Positions 39,632 through 47,099 of a stretch of 64,000 bases of DNA are shown here, one piece after another. The notes below the pieces were generated by a model that did no database searches, was not told the DNA's origin, and saw nothing but the letters and a program-made list of their open reading frames with translations. The first letter of the stretch is position 1, and each line of letters begins with the position of its first letter. Both the position numbers and the translations under genes were made by a program. This DNA is from Sulfitobacter marinus (lineage in GTDB: Bacteria; Pseudomonadota; Alphaproteobacteria; Rhodobacterales; Rhodobacteraceae), in the NCBI RefSeq assembly GCF_900116285.1, contig NZ_FPAJ01000002.1, forward strand, positions 124,001-188,000, read 5' to 3'.

Positions 39632-40288
39632 ATGATCATCAGCCGTGGCCGCAACTACATCTTTGTGCATATCCCCAAGACCGGGGGGACGTCGCTGGCG
39701 CTGGCGCTGGAAGGGCGCGCTATGAAGGATGACATCATGCTGGGCGACACCCCCAAAGCGCTAAAGCGCCGGAAGCGGATGAAGGATGTGCAGGCGGCCG
39801 GGCGGCTTTGGAAACATTCGACGCTGGCCGATATTGAAGGGGTGGTGACCCGCGACGAGATTGCGCAAATGTTTAGTTTTACCTTGGTGCGCAACCCGTG
39901 GGACCGGATCGTAAGCTATTATCACTGGCTGCGGGTGCAATCCTTTGATCACGCCATGGTCCGGCTTGCGCAACAAAACAGTTTCGCCGCATTCCTTGAA
40001 GCGCCCGCGTTACAAGCCAGCCTGCAAAACGCCCCCTATGGCAGCTATCTGCAAGACGGCGGGGGGGCAGAGCAGGGTAATCTGTTCATCCGGCTTGAGC
40101 ATTTTGCGCAGGATGCCGAGCCCCTGTTTGACCATCTGGGGTTCACGCTGACGCTGCCCAACGAAAACGCCTCTGACCGCGATGCTGAATACCAAAGCTA
40201 TTATTCGGACGCGCTTTCGCAGATTGTTGCACGGATTTGTGCCGTCGATATTGCGCGGTTCGGCTACCGTTTCGGGGATGCGGACTAG
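39632..40288 (+). CDS. Sulfotransferase family 2-like protein
   Basis: A 218-residue protein with the Sulfotransfer_2 PAPS-binding motif HIPKTGGTS at residues 13-21 and the 3'-phosphate site VRNPWDR at 86-92. The family moves sulfate from PAPS to glycans or lipids; bacterial members often modify exported polysaccharide or work on capsule and lipid targets. No transferase neighbours are present. The start at 39632 is 134 bases from the divergent acyl-CoA ligase. PAPS could come from the Sat/APS kinase fusion in this window. Confidence 0.85.
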   Translation: MIISRGRNYIFVHIPKTGGTSLALALEGRAMKDDIMLGDTPKALKRRKRMKDVQAAGRLWKHSTLADIEGVVTRDEIAQMFSFTLVRNPWDRIVSYYHWLRVQSFDHAMVRLAQQNSFAAFLEAPALQASLQNAPYGSYLQDGGGAEQGNLFIRLEHFAQDAEPLFDHLGFTLTLPNENASDRDAEYQSYYSDALSQIVARICAVDIARFGYRFGDAD

Positions 40289-40367: not shown

Positions 40368-42569
40368 TCAGGCGGCTTTGGCATCCGGCCCGAAACGGCC
40401 ATAGAATGTCTGACCTTTGTCTGCCATCTCGCGCAGTAGGGCAGGGCATTCGAAACGATCGCCGAACTTGGCTTGCAATTGGTCACAGCGCTCGGCGGCA
40501 TAAGGTGCGCCGATGATGTCGAGCCAGCTGAAAGGGCCACCGGACCAAGGCGCAAAGCCCCAGCCAAGGATCGCGCCAACATCGCCTTCGCGGATGTCTT
40601 CCAGCACGCCTTCTTCCAATGCGCGTACGGCTTCAAGCACTTGAACGAACATCAGACGGTCCTGCACATCGCGCAGATCAGGCTGCTCGTCGGCCAGCGG
40701 GAACTTGTCGTGCATGCCCTTCCAATAGCCCTGACGCTTGCCCTTTTCATCATAGTCGAAAAAGCCGGCTTTGGCTTTGCGGCCCAGACGGCCCAGATCT
40801 TCCATCCAGAAAATCAGATCGTCGGCTTGGGACGCAGGATAGGCATTGCCCATCGCAGCTTTGGTCGCGCGGGCAATCTTGGCCCCCAGATCAATGGACG
40901 TCTCGTCGGTCAGTTGCACGGGCCCAACAGGGAAGCCCAGCAATTGCGCCGCGTGATCCACAAGTTGCGGTGCCACACCTTCGGTGATCATCCGTGCGCC
41001 TTCGTTGGCATAAGGGATGATGCAGCGGTTGGCATAGAAGAACCGCGCGTCGTTCACCACGATGGGTGTCTTGCGGATCTGGCGCACGTAGTCGAGCGAT
41101 TTGGCCACAGCACGATCACCGGTTTCCTTGCCTTTGATGATCTCGACCAGCAGCATCTTCTCGACGGGCGAAAAGAAGTGGATGCCGATGAACTGATCCG
41201 CGCGTGACGATGCCTTGGCCAGTTCCGTGATCGGCAGGGTCGAGGTGTTGGAGGCGAAAATGCAATCGTCGGGGATCACGGCTTCGACCTTCTTGGTCAT
41301 CTCGGCCTTGACGGCGGGGTCTTCGAACACTGCTTCAATGATCAGATCGCAACCTTTCAGCGCGTCCAGATCGGTGGTCGCGGTGATCAGGTCCAACGCG
41401 GCCTGCTTCTTCTCTTCGGTGGACTTGCGACGTGCAATGCCCTTGTCAAAGAAGCTCGCGGAATAGGCTTTGCCTTTGTCTGCGGCTTCTTGGGTCTGGT
41501 CGATCAGCACAACTTCGATACCGGCCTGAACAGACACAAGCGTGATGCCCGCACCCATCATGCCTGCACCCAAAACGCCCAGCTTTTTGACGCGCTGGTC
41601 TGGCACACCTTCGGGGCGCACAGCACCTTTTTCCAAGGCCTCCTTGTTCAGGAACAGCGATTGGATCATGGCGGATGACGACGGGTTCATCAGGATGTTG
41701 GTGAACCAGCGTGCCTCGATCTTGAGCGCTGTATCAAACGGCACCAATGCACCTTCATATACGGCGCTTAGCAATGCTTTGGCGGCCGGGAATGCACCTT
41801 GGGTCTTGCCGTTTACCATCGCGTTGGCACCGACAAATGTCATAAAGCCAGCGGGGTGGTAAGGCGCGCCGCCTGGCATTTTATAGCCCTTGGCATCCCA
41901 AGGTTTCAGAATGTCCGCGTCTTTGGCGTTCAAGACCCACTCTTTCGCGGCGGCAACCGGATCGGCGACAACCTCGTCGATAAGGCCCGCAGATTTCGCC
42001 GCGGATGGTGCAACCATCTTGCCCTCAAGCAAGAAAGGCGACGCACCCATTGCGCCCAGTTTACGTGTCAGGCGCGTAGTGCCGCCCGCACCAGGGAAAA
42101 TGCCGACCATAATCTCGGGCAGGCCGATGCGCGCCTTGGGGTTGTCCGCGACGAAAATGCGGTGCGTGGCCAGTGGCAGTTCCAGACCGATACCAGCGGC
42201 AGTGCCGGGCAGAGCAGACGCAATCGGCTTGCCGCCCTTGTTGGTTTTCGGGTCCATGCCAGCACGTTCAATCTTGCGAAGCAGGGCGTGCATTTTCATG
42301 GTACCGTCGAACAGCCCTTGGGCCGGATCATCGCCCGCATCTTCGCGCATTTTGGCCAGTAGGTTCAGGTCCATACCGCCCGCGAAGGATCCATCCTTGC
42401 CGGACGTGACAACCGCACCCTTGATGCTGTCGTCGGACAAAACGGTGTCGATGATCGCGTCCAGTTCGGACAACCCTTCGATCGACATGACGTTCATGGA
42501 TTTACCGGGGACGTCCCAGGTGATGATGGCGACGCCGTCTGCGTCCTTGGTCATTGTGAAATCGGTCAT
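40368..42569 (-). CDS. fadJ: Fatty acid oxidation complex alpha subunit (FadJ/FadB type)
   Basis: A 733-residue fusion of enoyl-CoA hydratase/isomerase and 3-hydroxyacyl-CoA dehydrogenase. Residues 1-300 are the crotonase part with oxyanion residues around FAGGMDLN (62-69) and the catalytic-Glu segment LPEIMVGIFPGAGG (150-163). The NAD-binding GAGMMGAG is at 334-341, IFASNTSTLPI near 437 and the His-Glu dyad in GIHFFSPVEKM near 464-474. With the thiolase it catalyses the last three steps of beta-oxidation. It is the final gene before the terminator at 40318-40343. Confidence 0.96.
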   Translation of the reverse strand: MTDFTMTKDADGVAIITWDVPGKSMNVMSIEGLSELDAIIDTVLSDDSIKGAVVTSGKDGSFAGGMDLNLLAKMREDAGDDPAQGLFDGTMKMHALLRKIERAGMDPKTNKGGKPIASALPGTAAGIGLELPLATHRIFVADNPKARIGLPEIMVGIFPGAGGTTRLTRKLGAMGASPFLLEGKMVAPSAAKSAGLIDEVVADPVAAAKEWVLNAKDADILKPWDAKGYKMPGGAPYHPAGFMTFVGANAMVNGKTQGAFPAAKALLSAVYEGALVPFDTALKIEARWFTNILMNPSSSAMIQSLFLNKEALEKGAVRPEGVPDQRVKKLGVLGAGMMGAGITLVSVQAGIEVVLIDQTQEAADKGKAYSASFFDKGIARRKSTEEKKQAALDLITATTDLDALKGCDLIIEAVFEDPAVKAEMTKKVEAVIPDDCIFASNTSTLPITELAKASSRADQFIGIHFFSPVEKMLLVEIIKGKETGDRAVAKSLDYVRQIRKTPIVVNDARFFYANRCIIPYANEGARMITEGVAPQLVDHAAQLLGFPVGPVQLTDETSIDLGAKIARATKAAMGNAYPASQADDLIFWMEDLGRLGRKAKAGFFDYDEKGKRQGYWKGMHDKFPLADEQPDLRDVQDRLMFVQVLEAVRALEEGVLEDIREGDVGAILGWGFAPWSGGPFSWLDIIGAPYAAERCDQLQAKFGDRFECPALLREMADKGQTFYGRFGPDAKAA

Positions 42570-42594
42570 TTATCTCTCCCTGATTTGGAGTGTG

Positions 42595-42894
42595 TTACGA
42601 GCGCTGAGATGTGTAATCAGCGAATTTTTCAAGCAGTGATCGGATCAAAGCAATCGTGGCCTCTGGGCCATCGGTGCAATCTTCTTCGCTCAGCAATATC
42701 CGTTTGAAGTCGTTGAAACTCTCGCGGTCAAAGCTGTCGCTGGGATCATTGCGATGCTTAAAGAACAGCGGCGGCGTGTTCTGATAGAGGCGCACATAGG
42801 CCCCGCCGCGTTCTTCCTTGATCTTCAGGTCTTTCAATCCACGCTTTGCCGCCAGACCGGCGACAGCGTGGAAGGGATGGGGTTGGTCGCCCAT
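42595..42894 (-). CDS. Unknown 99-residue protein between fadA and fadJ
   Basis: The start ATG at 42894 shares a base with the fadA stop. The product is rich in charged residues (Lys, Arg, Glu, Asp) with no membrane span. It begins MGDQPHPFHAVAGLAAKRGL, followed by KIKEERGGAYVRLY, then a PPLFFKHRNDPSDSFDRESF segment and an EEDCTDGPEATIALIRSLLEKFAD helix at the C-terminus. I recognise no family. Its coupling to fadA and fadJ in one transcript suggests that it serves the fatty acid oxidation complex or its control. Confidence 0.65.
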   Translation of the reverse strand: MGDQPHPFHAVAGLAAKRGLKDLKIKEERGGAYVRLYQNTPPLFFKHRNDPSDSFDRESFNDFKRILLSEEDCTDGPEATIALIRSLLEKFADYTSQRS

Positions 42895-44105
42895 TAGACC
42901 CGCTCGATGATTGTGGCTGCACCCATGCCGGATGCAATGCAAAGCGTGGCCATGCCGACTTCTTTGTCGGACCGCTCAAGCTCGTCCAGCAATGTGCCGA
43001 TGATCATGGCACCGGTCGCGCCCAAGGGGTGACCCATGGCGATGGACCCGCCGTTAACGTTGACCTTGCTGTCATCCACGTCGAACGCCTGCATGAAACG
43101 CATGACCACGGCGGCGAAGGCTTCGTTAACCTCGAAGAGATCGATATCGCCGATCTTCATGCCGTTGTCGGCTAGGATTTTCTCGGTCACGGGCACAGGG
43201 CCGGTCAACATGATTGTGGGATCGGTGCCGATTTTGGCGGTGGCGCGGATTCGGGCGCGTGGCTTAATGCCGTATTTCTCGCCGAATTCCTTGTTGCCGA
43301 TCAGCACAGCCGCCGCACCGTCAACGATCCCTGATGAGTTGCCCGCGTGGTGGATGTGGTTAATTTTCTCAAGATGCGGGTACTTCATCAGCGCGATCTT
43401 GTCGAAACCGGGCATCACTTCGCCCATCTGCTGAAACGCAGGGTTTAGCGACCCAAGCGATTGCATGTCGGTCTGGGGGCGCATGTATTCATCGTGGCTC
43501 AGGATCGACAGGCCGTTCTGATCCTTAATGTCGATGACGGATTTGGCAAAACGGCCTTCGTCCCATGCCATCTTGGCGCGTTGCTGGGATTTGACCGCCA
43601 GCTGATCTGCTTCTTCACGGGTGAAACCGTATTCTGTCGCGATAATGTCGGCGGAAATGCCCTGCGGCACGAAATATTTTTCCATCGCAAGCGTGGGATC
43701 AACCGCAATCGCAGCACCGTCGCTGCCCATGGCAACGCGGCCCATCATTTCAACGCCGCCCGCGATATAGGCCATGCCCGCACCGCCCTTGACCTGGTTG
43801 GCGGCCAGGTTCACGGCCTCCATGCCGGACGCACAGAACCGGTTGATCGCAAGACCCGGAATGCGCTCGTCCAGATCAGATGCCAACACGGCCGAGCGTG
43901 CAAGGCAACCGCCCTGTTCCATGACTTGGGTCACGTTGCCCCAGATCACGTCCTCGACTGCGTGACCTTCAAGGTTGTTGCGGTCCTTCAGCGCGTTCAG
44001 CGTCAGCGCGGACAGGCGCAGCGATGTCAATTCATGCAGCGCGCCGTCTTTGCGGCCCTTACCGCGCGGGCTGCGCAATGCGTCATAAATATAGGCTTCA
44101 GTCAT
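42894..44105 (-). CDS. fadA: Acetyl-CoA C-acyltransferase (thiolase) of beta-oxidation
   Basis: A 403-residue thiolase. The nucleophile is Cys91 in NRFCASGMEAV; the His of the NGGSIAMGHPLGATGA block and the second Cys in CIASGMGAA near residue 390 complete the triad. The length and the partner fadJ mark it as the beta-subunit of the fatty acid oxidation complex. Its stop overlaps the 99-residue gene. Confidence 0.96.
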   Translation of the reverse strand: MTEAYIYDALRSPRGKGRKDGALHELTSLRLSALTLNALKDRNNLEGHAVEDVIWGNVTQVMEQGGCLARSAVLASDLDERIPGLAINRFCASGMEAVNLAANQVKGGAGMAYIAGGVEMMGRVAMGSDGAAIAVDPTLAMEKYFVPQGISADIIATEYGFTREEADQLAVKSQQRAKMAWDEGRFAKSVIDIKDQNGLSILSHDEYMRPQTDMQSLGSLNPAFQQMGEVMPGFDKIALMKYPHLEKINHIHHAGNSSGIVDGAAAVLIGNKEFGEKYGIKPRARIRATAKIGTDPTIMLTGPVPVTEKILADNGMKIGDIDLFEVNEAFAAVVMRFMQAFDVDDSKVNVNGGSIAMGHPLGATGAMIIGTLLDELERSDKEVGMATLCIASGMGAATIIERV

Positions 44106-44123: not shown

Positions 44124-44762
44124 TCAAGCGCGGTCAGCAGGGCTGCCGGGCATCAGGTCATACGGGGCTTTCCAGCCCGGTGTTTCGCTCAGACGCGTAA
44201 GCCACGCGTCGATATTTGGCCAATCCTTGCGGTTGAAGCCGAAAGGTTCGGGGTAATAAAGGTAGCCGCAGCAGCTTAGATCGGCGTTGGTGATGCCATC
44301 ACCCACGATCCAGTCACGCCCTTCAAGATGATCGTTAAGCACTGCGTAAGCAGCAGTAAGACGCCCCTGCATAAAGCTGATGACTTCCTTAGGCTGCTTG
44401 TTTTCGGGCAGGAAGTTCATCAAAAAACGTGTCATGCCAGCGTTGGAGCTAAGCTTGTGGTTATCCCATAAAACCCACCGCAAAATCTCGCGCCGTTCGG
44501 TGGAATCTTTGCCGCCGAATTTGCCGGATTTCTCGGACACGTAATCCTGAATCACGCCGGATTGGGTCAACCTAACATCGCCGTCGATCATAACCGGCGC
44601 TTCGCCCATCACATTTGTGCTGGTGCGAAAATCCTCTGTACGCGTTTCACCGCCAAAAAAATCGACTTTGACCGGCTCCCAAGCAAGGCCAGACAGTTCC
44701 AGCGCAAGGGCTGCTTTGTAGGCGTTTCCGCTTTCTCCGAAGCAATGCAATTTGATGGTCAT
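44124..44762 (-). CDS. Glutathione S-transferase family protein
   Basis: A 212-residue GST-fold protein. The thioredoxin-like N-terminal domain is KLHCFGESGNAYKAALALEL (residues 4-23), with GEAPVMIDGDVRLTQSGVI (51-69) carrying the cis-Pro and the glutathione gamma-glutamyl site. The C-terminal helical domain contains GDGITNADLSCCGYLYY near 157-173. The start at 44762 excludes an upstream stretch of the repeat copy 6. Its position 18 bases upstream of fadA suggests handling of reactive or CoA-linked intermediates, which is only inference. Confidence 0.88.
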   Translation of the reverse strand: MTIKLHCFGESGNAYKAALALELSGLAWEPVKVDFFGGETRTEDFRTSTNVMGEAPVMIDGDVRLTQSGVIQDYVSEKSGKFGGKDSTERREILRWVLWDNHKLSSNAGMTRFLMNFLPENKQPKEVISFMQGRLTAAYAVLNDHLEGRDWIVGDGITNADLSCCGYLYYPEPFGFNRKDWPNIDAWLTRLSETPGWKAPYDLMPGSPADRA

Positions 44763-44804
44763 TTGAACCTCCCTAAGGTCGTTTTCTGTCTCTCTGGTCG
44801 ACGT

Positions 44805-45054: not shown

Positions 45055-45267
45055 TTATTTTTTTCGATCATCGAGTTCGGCGTTAAAGAGCCGCAGGCGC
45101 GTTGTCAGATTTTCTTCATTCATGACGCTGTTGAAGTTTTCAAAGAGAAAAGACAGCGCTTCCCCTTCGTCTAGTCCTGCCTCGGTCGCGAATTTTTTGA
45201 GCCGCCGGTAACCGTCTTCGGTCATGGCGACGGGGAAACGGCGGGTGAGGCGCAAACGTTTGGGCAT
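45055..45267 (-). CDS. Small ribbon-helix-helix-like protein
   Basis: A 70-residue protein: MPKRLRLTRRFPVAMTEDGY then RRLKKFATEAGLDEGEALSF and a final LFENFNSVMNEENLTTRLRLF helix. A basic short strand (RFPVAMTED) followed by two helices is the ribbon-helix-helix layout, typical of small DNA-binding repressors and antitoxins. No toxin gene lies beside it. Its place between the acyl-CoA dehydrogenase and GST genes on the same strand suggests co-expression with the oxidation block. Family assignment is tentative. Confidence 0.55.
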   Translation of the reverse strand: MPKRLRLTRRFPVAMTEDGYRRLKKFATEAGLDEGEALSFLFENFNSVMNEENLTTRLRLFNAELDDRKK

Positions 45268-45317: not shown

Positions 45318-47099
45318 TTAGAAGTTTGCCGCGTCCAGCGCCATCACCGTATCCGCACCGGTCTGGATGCGGGTCAGGTGCAGGGCTGTGGCAGGCAATT
45401 GCCGTGCCATGTAGTAGCGGCCGGTGGCCAGTTTCGTCTCGTAAAAGGACGCGTCGCCGGTGCCGTCTGCAAGAGCCTTTTTCGCGGCCAGACCCATTTT
45501 CGCCCACATATAGCCAAGGCAGACCTGACCAAACATGTGCATGAAGTCGGTCGAGCCAGCCAAAGCATTGTTGGGGTTTTTCATGCCGTTTTGCATGAAG
45601 TACATACCAGCGGCTTGCAGGTCCTTGCTCGCGGCTTTCAGTGGCTCAAGATAGGCCGCGTCGAATTCGGCGTCTTGGCCTGTGTTTTCCTTGATAAAGG
45701 TTTTCAGCATCTCGAAGAACGCCATCACGTGTTTGCCACCGTCTTGCGCCAGTTTGCGGCCCACAAGGTCAAGGGCCTGAACGCCGTTGGCCCCTTCATA
45801 GATCATTGCAATACGGGCATCGCGGGTGAACTGGGACATGCCCCATTCTTCGATGTAGCCGTGGCCGCCGTAAACCTGCTGCGCTTTGACGGTCATGTCA
45901 TAGCCCACATCGGTCAGGAAACCCTTGATGACGGGCGTCATTAGAGACACCAGACCATCCGCGTCTTTATCGTTGGAGCGGTGCGCGGCGTCGATCAGGT
46001 TTGCACCCCAAAGGATGAATGCGCGTGCGCCTTCGACAAAAGATTTCTGGTCCATCAAGCTGCGGCGGATATCTGGGTGAACGATCAGCGGATCAGCCGG
46101 ACCATTGGGGTTTTCGGTCCCTGTTACGGCACGGCCTTGCAGGCGGTCCTTGGCGTAGTCCAACGCGTTTTGATAGGCAACATCGGCCTGCGCCAGACCT
46201 TGCATGCCAACGCCAACGCGGGCCTCGTTCATCATCGTGAACATGGCGCGCATGCCTTTATGCTCTTCACCCAGCAGATAGCCGACAGCGCCATCATAGT
46301 TCATCACGCAGGTGGAGTTCCCGTGGATGCCCATTTTCTCTTCGATGGAGCCGACGGAAAGGCTGTTGCGATCACCAAGGGAGCCATCTTCGTTCACCAT
46401 GAACTTGGGAACGATAAACAGCGACACGCCTTTGATGCCTTCGGGGCCGCCTTCGATCTTGGCCAGAACCAGATGGATGATGTTATCGGCCATGTCGTGA
46501 TCGCCGGAGGAGATAAAGATTTTCTGGCCAGAGATTTTATAGCTGCCGTCTTCCTGAGGTGCTGCTTTGGTGCGCATCAGGCCCAGGTCGGTGCCGCAAT
46601 GTGGTTCGGTCAGGTTCATGGTGCCGGTCCATTCGCACGAGACCATGTTCGGCAGGTAGGTGTCTTTTTGCGCGTCTGACCCGTGGGCTAGAATTGCGGA
46701 TGCCGCACCGTGGGTCAAACCCTGATACATGGTGAATGCTTGGTTGGAGGCCGAGAACATCTCGCCCACGGCGGTACCCATGACGTAGGGCATATTTTGG
46801 CCACCGTATTGTTCTGGCATGTCCAGCCCGGGCCAGCCGCCTTCTTTGACCTTGGCAAAGGCATCCTTAAAACCGATTGGCGTATAGACAACGCCATTTT
46901 CCAGACGGCAGCCTTCTTTGTCGCCCACGGCGTTCAGCGGTGCCAGCACTTCCGAGGTCAGCTTGCCTGCTTCCTCAAGGATAGCCGAGGTGAAATCGGC
47001 CTCAAGCTCATCATAGCCTGGGATGATCTGCTCGGTGACCTGCAGTACATCGTGTAGCACGAATTGCATGTCTTTGATGGGTGCTGTGTAGCTCGGCAT
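45318..47099 (-). CDS. DmdC-like acyl-CoA dehydrogenase
   Basis: A 593-residue flavoprotein, longer than normal acyl-CoA dehydrogenases (about 390) because of a C-terminal extension of about 130 residues (from [13 protein letters not shown] onward). The catalytic core is seen in [39 protein letters not shown] and [23 protein letters not shown]. The long class contains DmdC, which oxidises methylmercaptopropionyl-CoA in DMSP demethylation, and its paralogs with medium/long-chain substrates. Sequence alone does not separate these. It is preceded by a MerR regulator and followed by fatty acid oxidation genes. Confidence 0.85.

Follow-up and report, generated by a model that had tools for sequence, protein, structure and literature searches.

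The locus examined here raises the question of why a gene for a 99-residue protein should lie between the genes for the two subunits of a fatty acid beta-oxidation complex. In the window, by which we mean the whole 64,000-nucleotide stretch of Sulfitobacter marinus DNA that was analysed, this gene (hereafter X) separates fadA from a fadJ-like gene, and a preliminary description made from the letters of the sequence had suggested that its product could be a small subunit, an assembly factor or a brake on the complex. As here, E. coli FadBA and FadIJ are each encoded by neighbouring thiolase and alpha-subunit genes of one complex. According to the part of PMC9329746 available to us, the E. coli genes are transcribed as a pair and no gene between them is mentioned, whereas X or other small genes occupy that position in many of the bacteria considered below. 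A search of the open-licence literature turned up no account of an intervening gene at this position in Rhodobacterales, although one may be mentioned in the body text of a paper. A small E. coli protein of unknown role, YfcZ, is encoded beside fadIJ, the second trifunctional-enzyme operon of that organism; it resembles X in size and in its proximity to such an operon but, unlike X, it is not known to be encoded between the subunit genes.

Organization of the locus

The gene order is acyl-CoA dehydrogenase-like gene, 70-residue ORF, glutathione S-transferase (GST), fadA, X and fadJ, and the features are as follows (window positions).

45318-47099, minus strand: acyl-CoA dehydrogenase-like gene, 593 residues, upstream; named from reading the sequence
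45055-45267, minus strand: charged ORF of 70 residues, flanked by the acyl-CoA dehydrogenase-like and GST genes; no Pfam or NCBIfam match
44124-44762, minus strand: GST-like gene directly upstream of fadA; start inferred from the ORF translation
42894-44105, minus strand: fadA, 3-ketoacyl-CoA thiolase, 403 residues; matches NCBIfam NF006090 (acetyl-CoA C-acetyltransferase) over the cut-off
42892-42896, minus strand: TAATG junction, in which the fadA stop TAA (42896-42894) and the X start ATG (42894-42892) have base 42894 in common
42595-42894, minus strand: gene X, 99 codons and a stop (42597-42595)
42570-42594, minus strand: 25-base spacer between X and fadJ, containing the ribosome-binding-like GGGAGAGA
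40368-42569, minus strand: fadJ-like alpha subunit (enoyl-CoA hydratase / 3-hydroxyacyl-CoA dehydrogenase), 733 residues
40318-40343, minus strand: terminator-like 11-pair stem after fadJ; a consensus match only, found on both strands
39632-40288, plus strand: sulfotransferase-family gene converging on fadJ across the terminator-like hairpin

The preliminary description was right about the extent of the ORF and about the base that its start codon shares with the fadA stop, and its characterization of the protein as soluble and charged is fair when judged by eye. X is not, however, "fused" to anything, as had been written; it is a separate gene whose start is interlocked with the fadA stop. Judging from this arrangement, X is probably transcribed with the fad operon and made together with FadA and FadJ, as had been proposed, and, because of the interlocked start and stop, its synthesis would depend on translation of fadA. 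The GST-like gene, for which the family scan covered positions 44124-44795, is likely to belong to the same operon. The NCBIfam model closest to FadJ is NF008363, with a score below its cut-off, and 18 terminator-like sites are found in the region against 10.8 expected.

Conservation and distribution of X

When presence is scored at E 0.001 or better, X is found in 17 of 60 relatives, all of them in the genus group of the window (g1), where it occurs in 17 of the 36 genomes with the window's own genome counted. In all 17 it lies between fadA and fadJ and keeps the overlap of its ATG with the fadA stop. The frame is intact in 16 of these 17; the frameshift in the remaining genome (G013, loci L013 and L018) may be a sequencing error. 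Intact frames are present in G551 (L071) and at locus L058, where FadA and FadJ are similar to those of G013. In 11 pairs, the dN/dS values of X lie between 0.014 and 0.181, compared with 0.010-0.069 for fadA and 0.009-0.108 for the start of fadJ in the same pairs, in which dS often exceeds 1 and is sometimes saturated. In amino acid sequence, X changes faster than FadA in 10 of these pairs and faster than FadJ in 9. X is under purifying selection and is clearly constrained. The earlier statement that X belongs to no known family also stands, in that the window protein gives nothing over the Pfam or NCBIfam cut-offs (the sole Pfam row, VitD-bind_III, has E 0.24 and is below cut-off) and no match at E 0.1 in PHROGs or PADLOC. 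Marginal PHROG (E 0.032) and PADLOC (E 0.019) rows are obtained with the distant copy at locus L070.

Beyond the genus, X or a relative was detected in 4 of 394 genomes in a family-wide draw, and searches with an X profile gave 13 of 390 genomes order-wide at E 0.01, two of them weak, and 3 of 190 class-wide, one of them weak (G774, E 0.005). Weak profile matches in G210 and G463 (E 0.004-0.01) were taken as chance; no fadA lies within the 3.1-3.2 kb fetched around them. Pooling the genus, family-wide and order-wide searches, with weak matches left out, places the X family in 26 distinct genomes, and in 25 of these X directly follows fadA and lies upstream of fadJ. The exception is G276, in which a solo 94-residue member of the family is encoded away from fadA (L051, 5285-5569, minus strand), next to genes whose translations suggest a sugar ABC transporter. 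A scan of named genomes, which overlaps with the set of 26, returned 17 X loci labelled Sulfitobacter (S. litoralis DSM 17584 and S. brevis DSM 11443 among them), Roseobacter, Ascidiaceihabitans and Roseovarius, and the order fadA-X-fadJ is seen in all 17, with fadA or fadJ cut by a contig end in some cases. Even distant copies (about 28-44% identity) are still found in the fadA-fadJ slot; residues common to X and these copies are H6-P7-F8, R35-L36, F45, D50-P51 and D56. X is followed by a cupin gene in Roseovarius (L070) and in G479, and by an NTF2-like gene and a double cupin in G524.

X is not matched in 19 of the 36 g1 genomes, nor in any of the 68 genomes sampled one per genus, a figure that refers to the genomes picked rather than to the genera because g302, g318 and g324 have an X-family member in another species. 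The expectation that the gene is kept at this spot is therefore borne out in 25 of the 26 genomes that have X, but X itself is not conserved across roseobacters, which goes half-way towards the refutation that the preliminary description had set for itself. Carriage as mobile-element cargo is not supported because X has no match in the plasmids or phages searched.

Other occupants of the fadA-fadJ junction

The junction between fadA and fadJ is a variable slot in the family. We found fadA in 154 of the 158 genomes of the order and surveyed the slot in 80 of these, namely 68 representing one genus each and 12 from genera g318 and g302; fadA occurs in 73 genera, those outside the 68 being g1, g35 and g31, which were covered separately, and g362 and g125, for which no coordinates were listed. 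Junction sizes among the 68 are bimodal, with 21 at 4-42 bases and 47 at 347 bases or more. Twenty-one slots are empty, and 44 of the 47 filled ones contain NTF2/SnoaL-like and/or cupin genes (24 NTF2-like without cupin, 13 cupin without NTF2-like, one of these with a NADAR-like gene in front, and 7 with both), although the profiles that define these classes derive from ORFs of the survey itself, so that the counts lean on the chosen seeds. The other three hold a NADAR protein, a 126-residue ORF (L112) and a 101-residue ORF. Stretches without a class remain within some of the slots assigned to NTF2-like or cupin, such as 436 bases in L154 and, in L137, 577 bases that correspond to a NADAR gene. 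NADAR-domain proteins are encoded in the slots of L128 (G356) and, by sequence likeness, L137 (G398), and the L128 protein matches both Pfam NADAR and the PADLOC candidate defence model PDC-M42C (E 6e-38).

The 12 additional genomes of g318 and g302 have nine NTF2-like, one cupin and two empty slots, and a separate set of 12 further genomes has two NTF2-like, five cupin, four empty and one other, the last (L043) being missed by the slot profiles and giving a DUF6841 (NTF2-like) row at E 7e-4. In g1, slot content was established for 16 of the 19 genomes that lack X (G004, G006 and G032 were left out); fadA is present in all 16, and their junctions contain an NTF2-like gene in 11 cases and a cupin in one, and are short in four. 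One of the short junctions (G021, 123 bases) reads like a decayed NTF2-like gene. The slots are tightly packed: of the 99 in which a gene could be classed, 25 end in a stop that has a 4-base overlap with the start of fadJ. No slot holds more than four ORFs, the number found in G276 (L088, 2472-4734), where the order is double NTF2-like, NTF2-like, cupin and NTF2-like. Ten fadA-bearing class members from outside the family were also compared: in nine of them 5-112 bases separate fadA from fadJ, and the tenth has a gene there that reads as a cupin.

The slot cupins are of the metal-site type. Among 26 of their sequences, each of the residues H, H, E and H is retained in 92-100%, and the two that were scanned both match Cupin_2; the L070 cupin has a match at E 4.9e-54 to the solved chain 3i7d_A, an entry deposited under the name of a sugar phosphate isomerase. 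The label "NTF2-like" is a weak one, with best E-values of 4e-5 to 0.005 among 52 members scanned and Pfam matches to DUF4440 (6), SnoaL_3 (5), SnoaL_2 (4), SnoaL_4 (2) and DUF6841 (2). The NTF2-like and cupin genes of other Rhodobacterales resemble X in place, orientation, tight packing and the small size of their products, but they have no sequence relation to it. Profile comparisons rule out X as a diverged NTF2 or cupin protein: hhalign gives a probability of 0.8% for X against the NTF2-like slot set and the slot HMM gives E 0.3 or worse, and on the cupin side there is no Pfam cupin row and the slot-cupin HMM gives E 2.4 or worse.

Turnover of the slot

Sequences of rpoB were sought from 30 of the 36 g1 genomes and obtained from 29 (G033 gave none). 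On the resulting tree the slot state changes at least seven times and the presence of X at least five times, and five X changes are forced by well-supported branches. A tree built from the adjoining parts of fadA and fadJ also gives seven and five changes, with only three of the X changes forced. Since shuffled labels require 9.9 changes of X on average, as against at least five, inheritance of X is partly vertical. In one case the two trees place a genome differently, G026 pairing with G024 by rpoB (100/100) and with G003 by fadA and fadJ (100/99), and G003 and G026 have the same 21-base empty junction. This single case fits homologous recombination that swapped slot alleles along with the sequences on either side.

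Control junctions

Two other junctions were used as controls. The distance between the etfB and etfA domains is 134-194 bases in all 43 pairs from 40 genomes, all rows being used, so that this junction contains no insert. The corresponding sucC-sucD distance ranges from 472 to 3016 bases and is 650 or more in 26 of 40 cases; these 40 distances come from 39 genomes (G346 counted twice; G293, with a split sucD match, not included), after 22 rows with ligase paralogues or split copies had been left out. The 20 sucC-sucD junctions that were fetched, picked from the longer ones, gave no match at E 10 to the X, NTF2-like or cupin slot profiles, and many of their ORFs look exported or sulfotransferase- or glycosyltransferase-like from a reading of the translations. 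An example of a filled sucC-sucD slot is L212 (G000:C5:148873-150296). Insertion is therefore not peculiar to fadA-fadJ, and these bacteria may accept inserts quite generally, but what fills a junction is specific to it.

Predicted structure of X

An AlphaFold2 model of X built with 18 sequences (pLDDT 88, pTM 0.80) predicts a small alpha/beta domain with elements in the order alpha-beta-beta-beta-alpha-beta-alpha-alpha. A Foldseek search with this model gave nothing at E 0.001 or better. The best VIA-align rows are NGO0050 (Z 7.4, rmsd 3.9, 89 aligned) and I-Bth0305I (Z 6.3, rmsd 4.0, 83 aligned), followed by Toxoplasma mitoribosome chains, VRR-NUC and Hjc, and VIA-align values of Z below 8 may mean only a common arrangement. 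The model of the distant L070 copy is poorer (pLDDT 76) and aligns best with unrelated proteins (Z 5.0 and 4.8); I-Bth0305I follows at 4.7, and Hjc and Vsr are also listed at lower Z than for X. The order of helices and strands in NGO0050, I-Bth0305I, Hjc and Vsr resembles that in the X model, but the Z values are weak, a search of X against the sequences of solved structures (PDB) gave no match (one row, E 2.2), and the (D/E)XK catalytic motif is absent from X. The third strand reads LFFKH, and the residue two before Lys-46 (or the Arg that replaces it) is F or V in the 18 aligned X rows. X thus possibly has a PD-(D/E)XK-like arrangement; membership in that family is not claimed because the motif is missing.

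Discussion

These comparisons identify X, almost certainly, as a real accessory gene of the slot, selected and specific to Sulfitobacter-like Rhodobacterales. Action of its product in or on beta-oxidation is slightly short of an even proposition. Our best overall explanation, which we hold with about even confidence, is that this lineage-specific slot gene encodes a dispensable protein that modulates or binds the beta-oxidation enzyme, or acts on the flux of acyl-CoA through it; in other lineages, the NTF2/SnoaL-like proteins or cupins encoded at this position may have a comparable role. The "brake" of the preliminary description thus survives in a restricted form, X being perhaps a lineage-specific accessory or brake. 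That X keeps its place even at about 28-44% identity favours this explanation, as do the purifying selection on X, the refilling of the slot mostly with NTF2-like and cupin genes, the contrast with the control junctions in what is inserted, and the close packing of the slot genes. Against it stand the solo copy in G276, whose own slot holds four NTF2-like domains and a cupin, the absence of X from about half of the genomes of the genus, and the filling of sucC-sucD.

The same observations give weight to a competing explanation that is nearly as likely as a modulator, namely that the junction is a permissive landing site where small genes profit from expression of the operon and where X is a passenger unrelated to fatty acids. 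This alternative, which we consider a serious one though below even, would account for the inserts in sucC-sucD, another central-metabolism junction, for the solitary G276 copy, for the odd unrelated genes in some slots (NADAR in L128 and, by likeness, L137, the ORF in L112), and for the coming and going of X on the rpoB tree. It does not readily explain why a few recurrent families predominate in the slot and have no match in the 20 fetched sucC-sucD junctions, why X keeps its place over deep divergence, or why etfB-etfA stays clean.

That X is a third core subunit of the trifunctional enzyme or helps to assemble it, as first suggested, is unlikely. The start of X overlaps the fadA stop in 17 of 17 genomes and the gene lies between two subunit genes, but the idea founders on the many close relatives in which fadA and fadJ occur without X: in g1, X is found in 17 of 36 genomes and fadA is present in all 16 of the X-less ones checked. 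Moreover, X occurs in none of the 68 genomes sampled one per genus, 21 of which have nothing between the two genes, the junction is short in 9 of 10 more distant class members, and the available part of PMC9329746 describes the E. coli complexes as made up of alpha and beta chains alone.

Equally improbable is a degenerate PD-(D/E)XK-like nucleic-acid-binding protein of the RAP kind, acting for example on fad mRNA. RAP domains share the PD-(D/E)XK-like fold, and the predicted element order, the leading NGO0050 and I-Bth0305I rows and the return of I-Bth0305I, Hjc and Vsr with the L070 model at lower Z would agree with such a protein; the low Z values, the empty Foldseek result, the unrelated proteins that head the L070 rows, the missing motif and the lack of any link to DNA or RNA argue against it. 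Finally, a chance ORF in the spacer, which the shortness of X and its lack of family matches might suggest, is effectively ruled out by the dN/dS values in 11 pairs and the frame kept in 16 of 17 genomes.

Returning to a modulator of beta-oxidation, a broader and doubtful extension is that the fadA-fadJ junction is a modular socket into which lineages plug, singly or in combination, members of at least three unrelated small families, namely X, NTF2/SnoaL-like proteins and metal cupins, all acting on the same beta-oxidation enzyme or its intermediates, with alleles swapped by recombination in the conserved flanks; X would then be a new family of enzyme modulators. The addition of genes to operons is well known; what is unusual, to our knowledge, is a slot that lies between the obligate subunit genes of a single complex and is refilled repeatedly from a few families. 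If its occupants do not act on beta-oxidation, the slot would be a natural example of central-metabolism operons serving as expression sites for accessory genes. If they do, three groups of uncharacterised proteins would gain a testable role, and marine bacteria would vary the breakdown of fatty acids by swapping small modulators.
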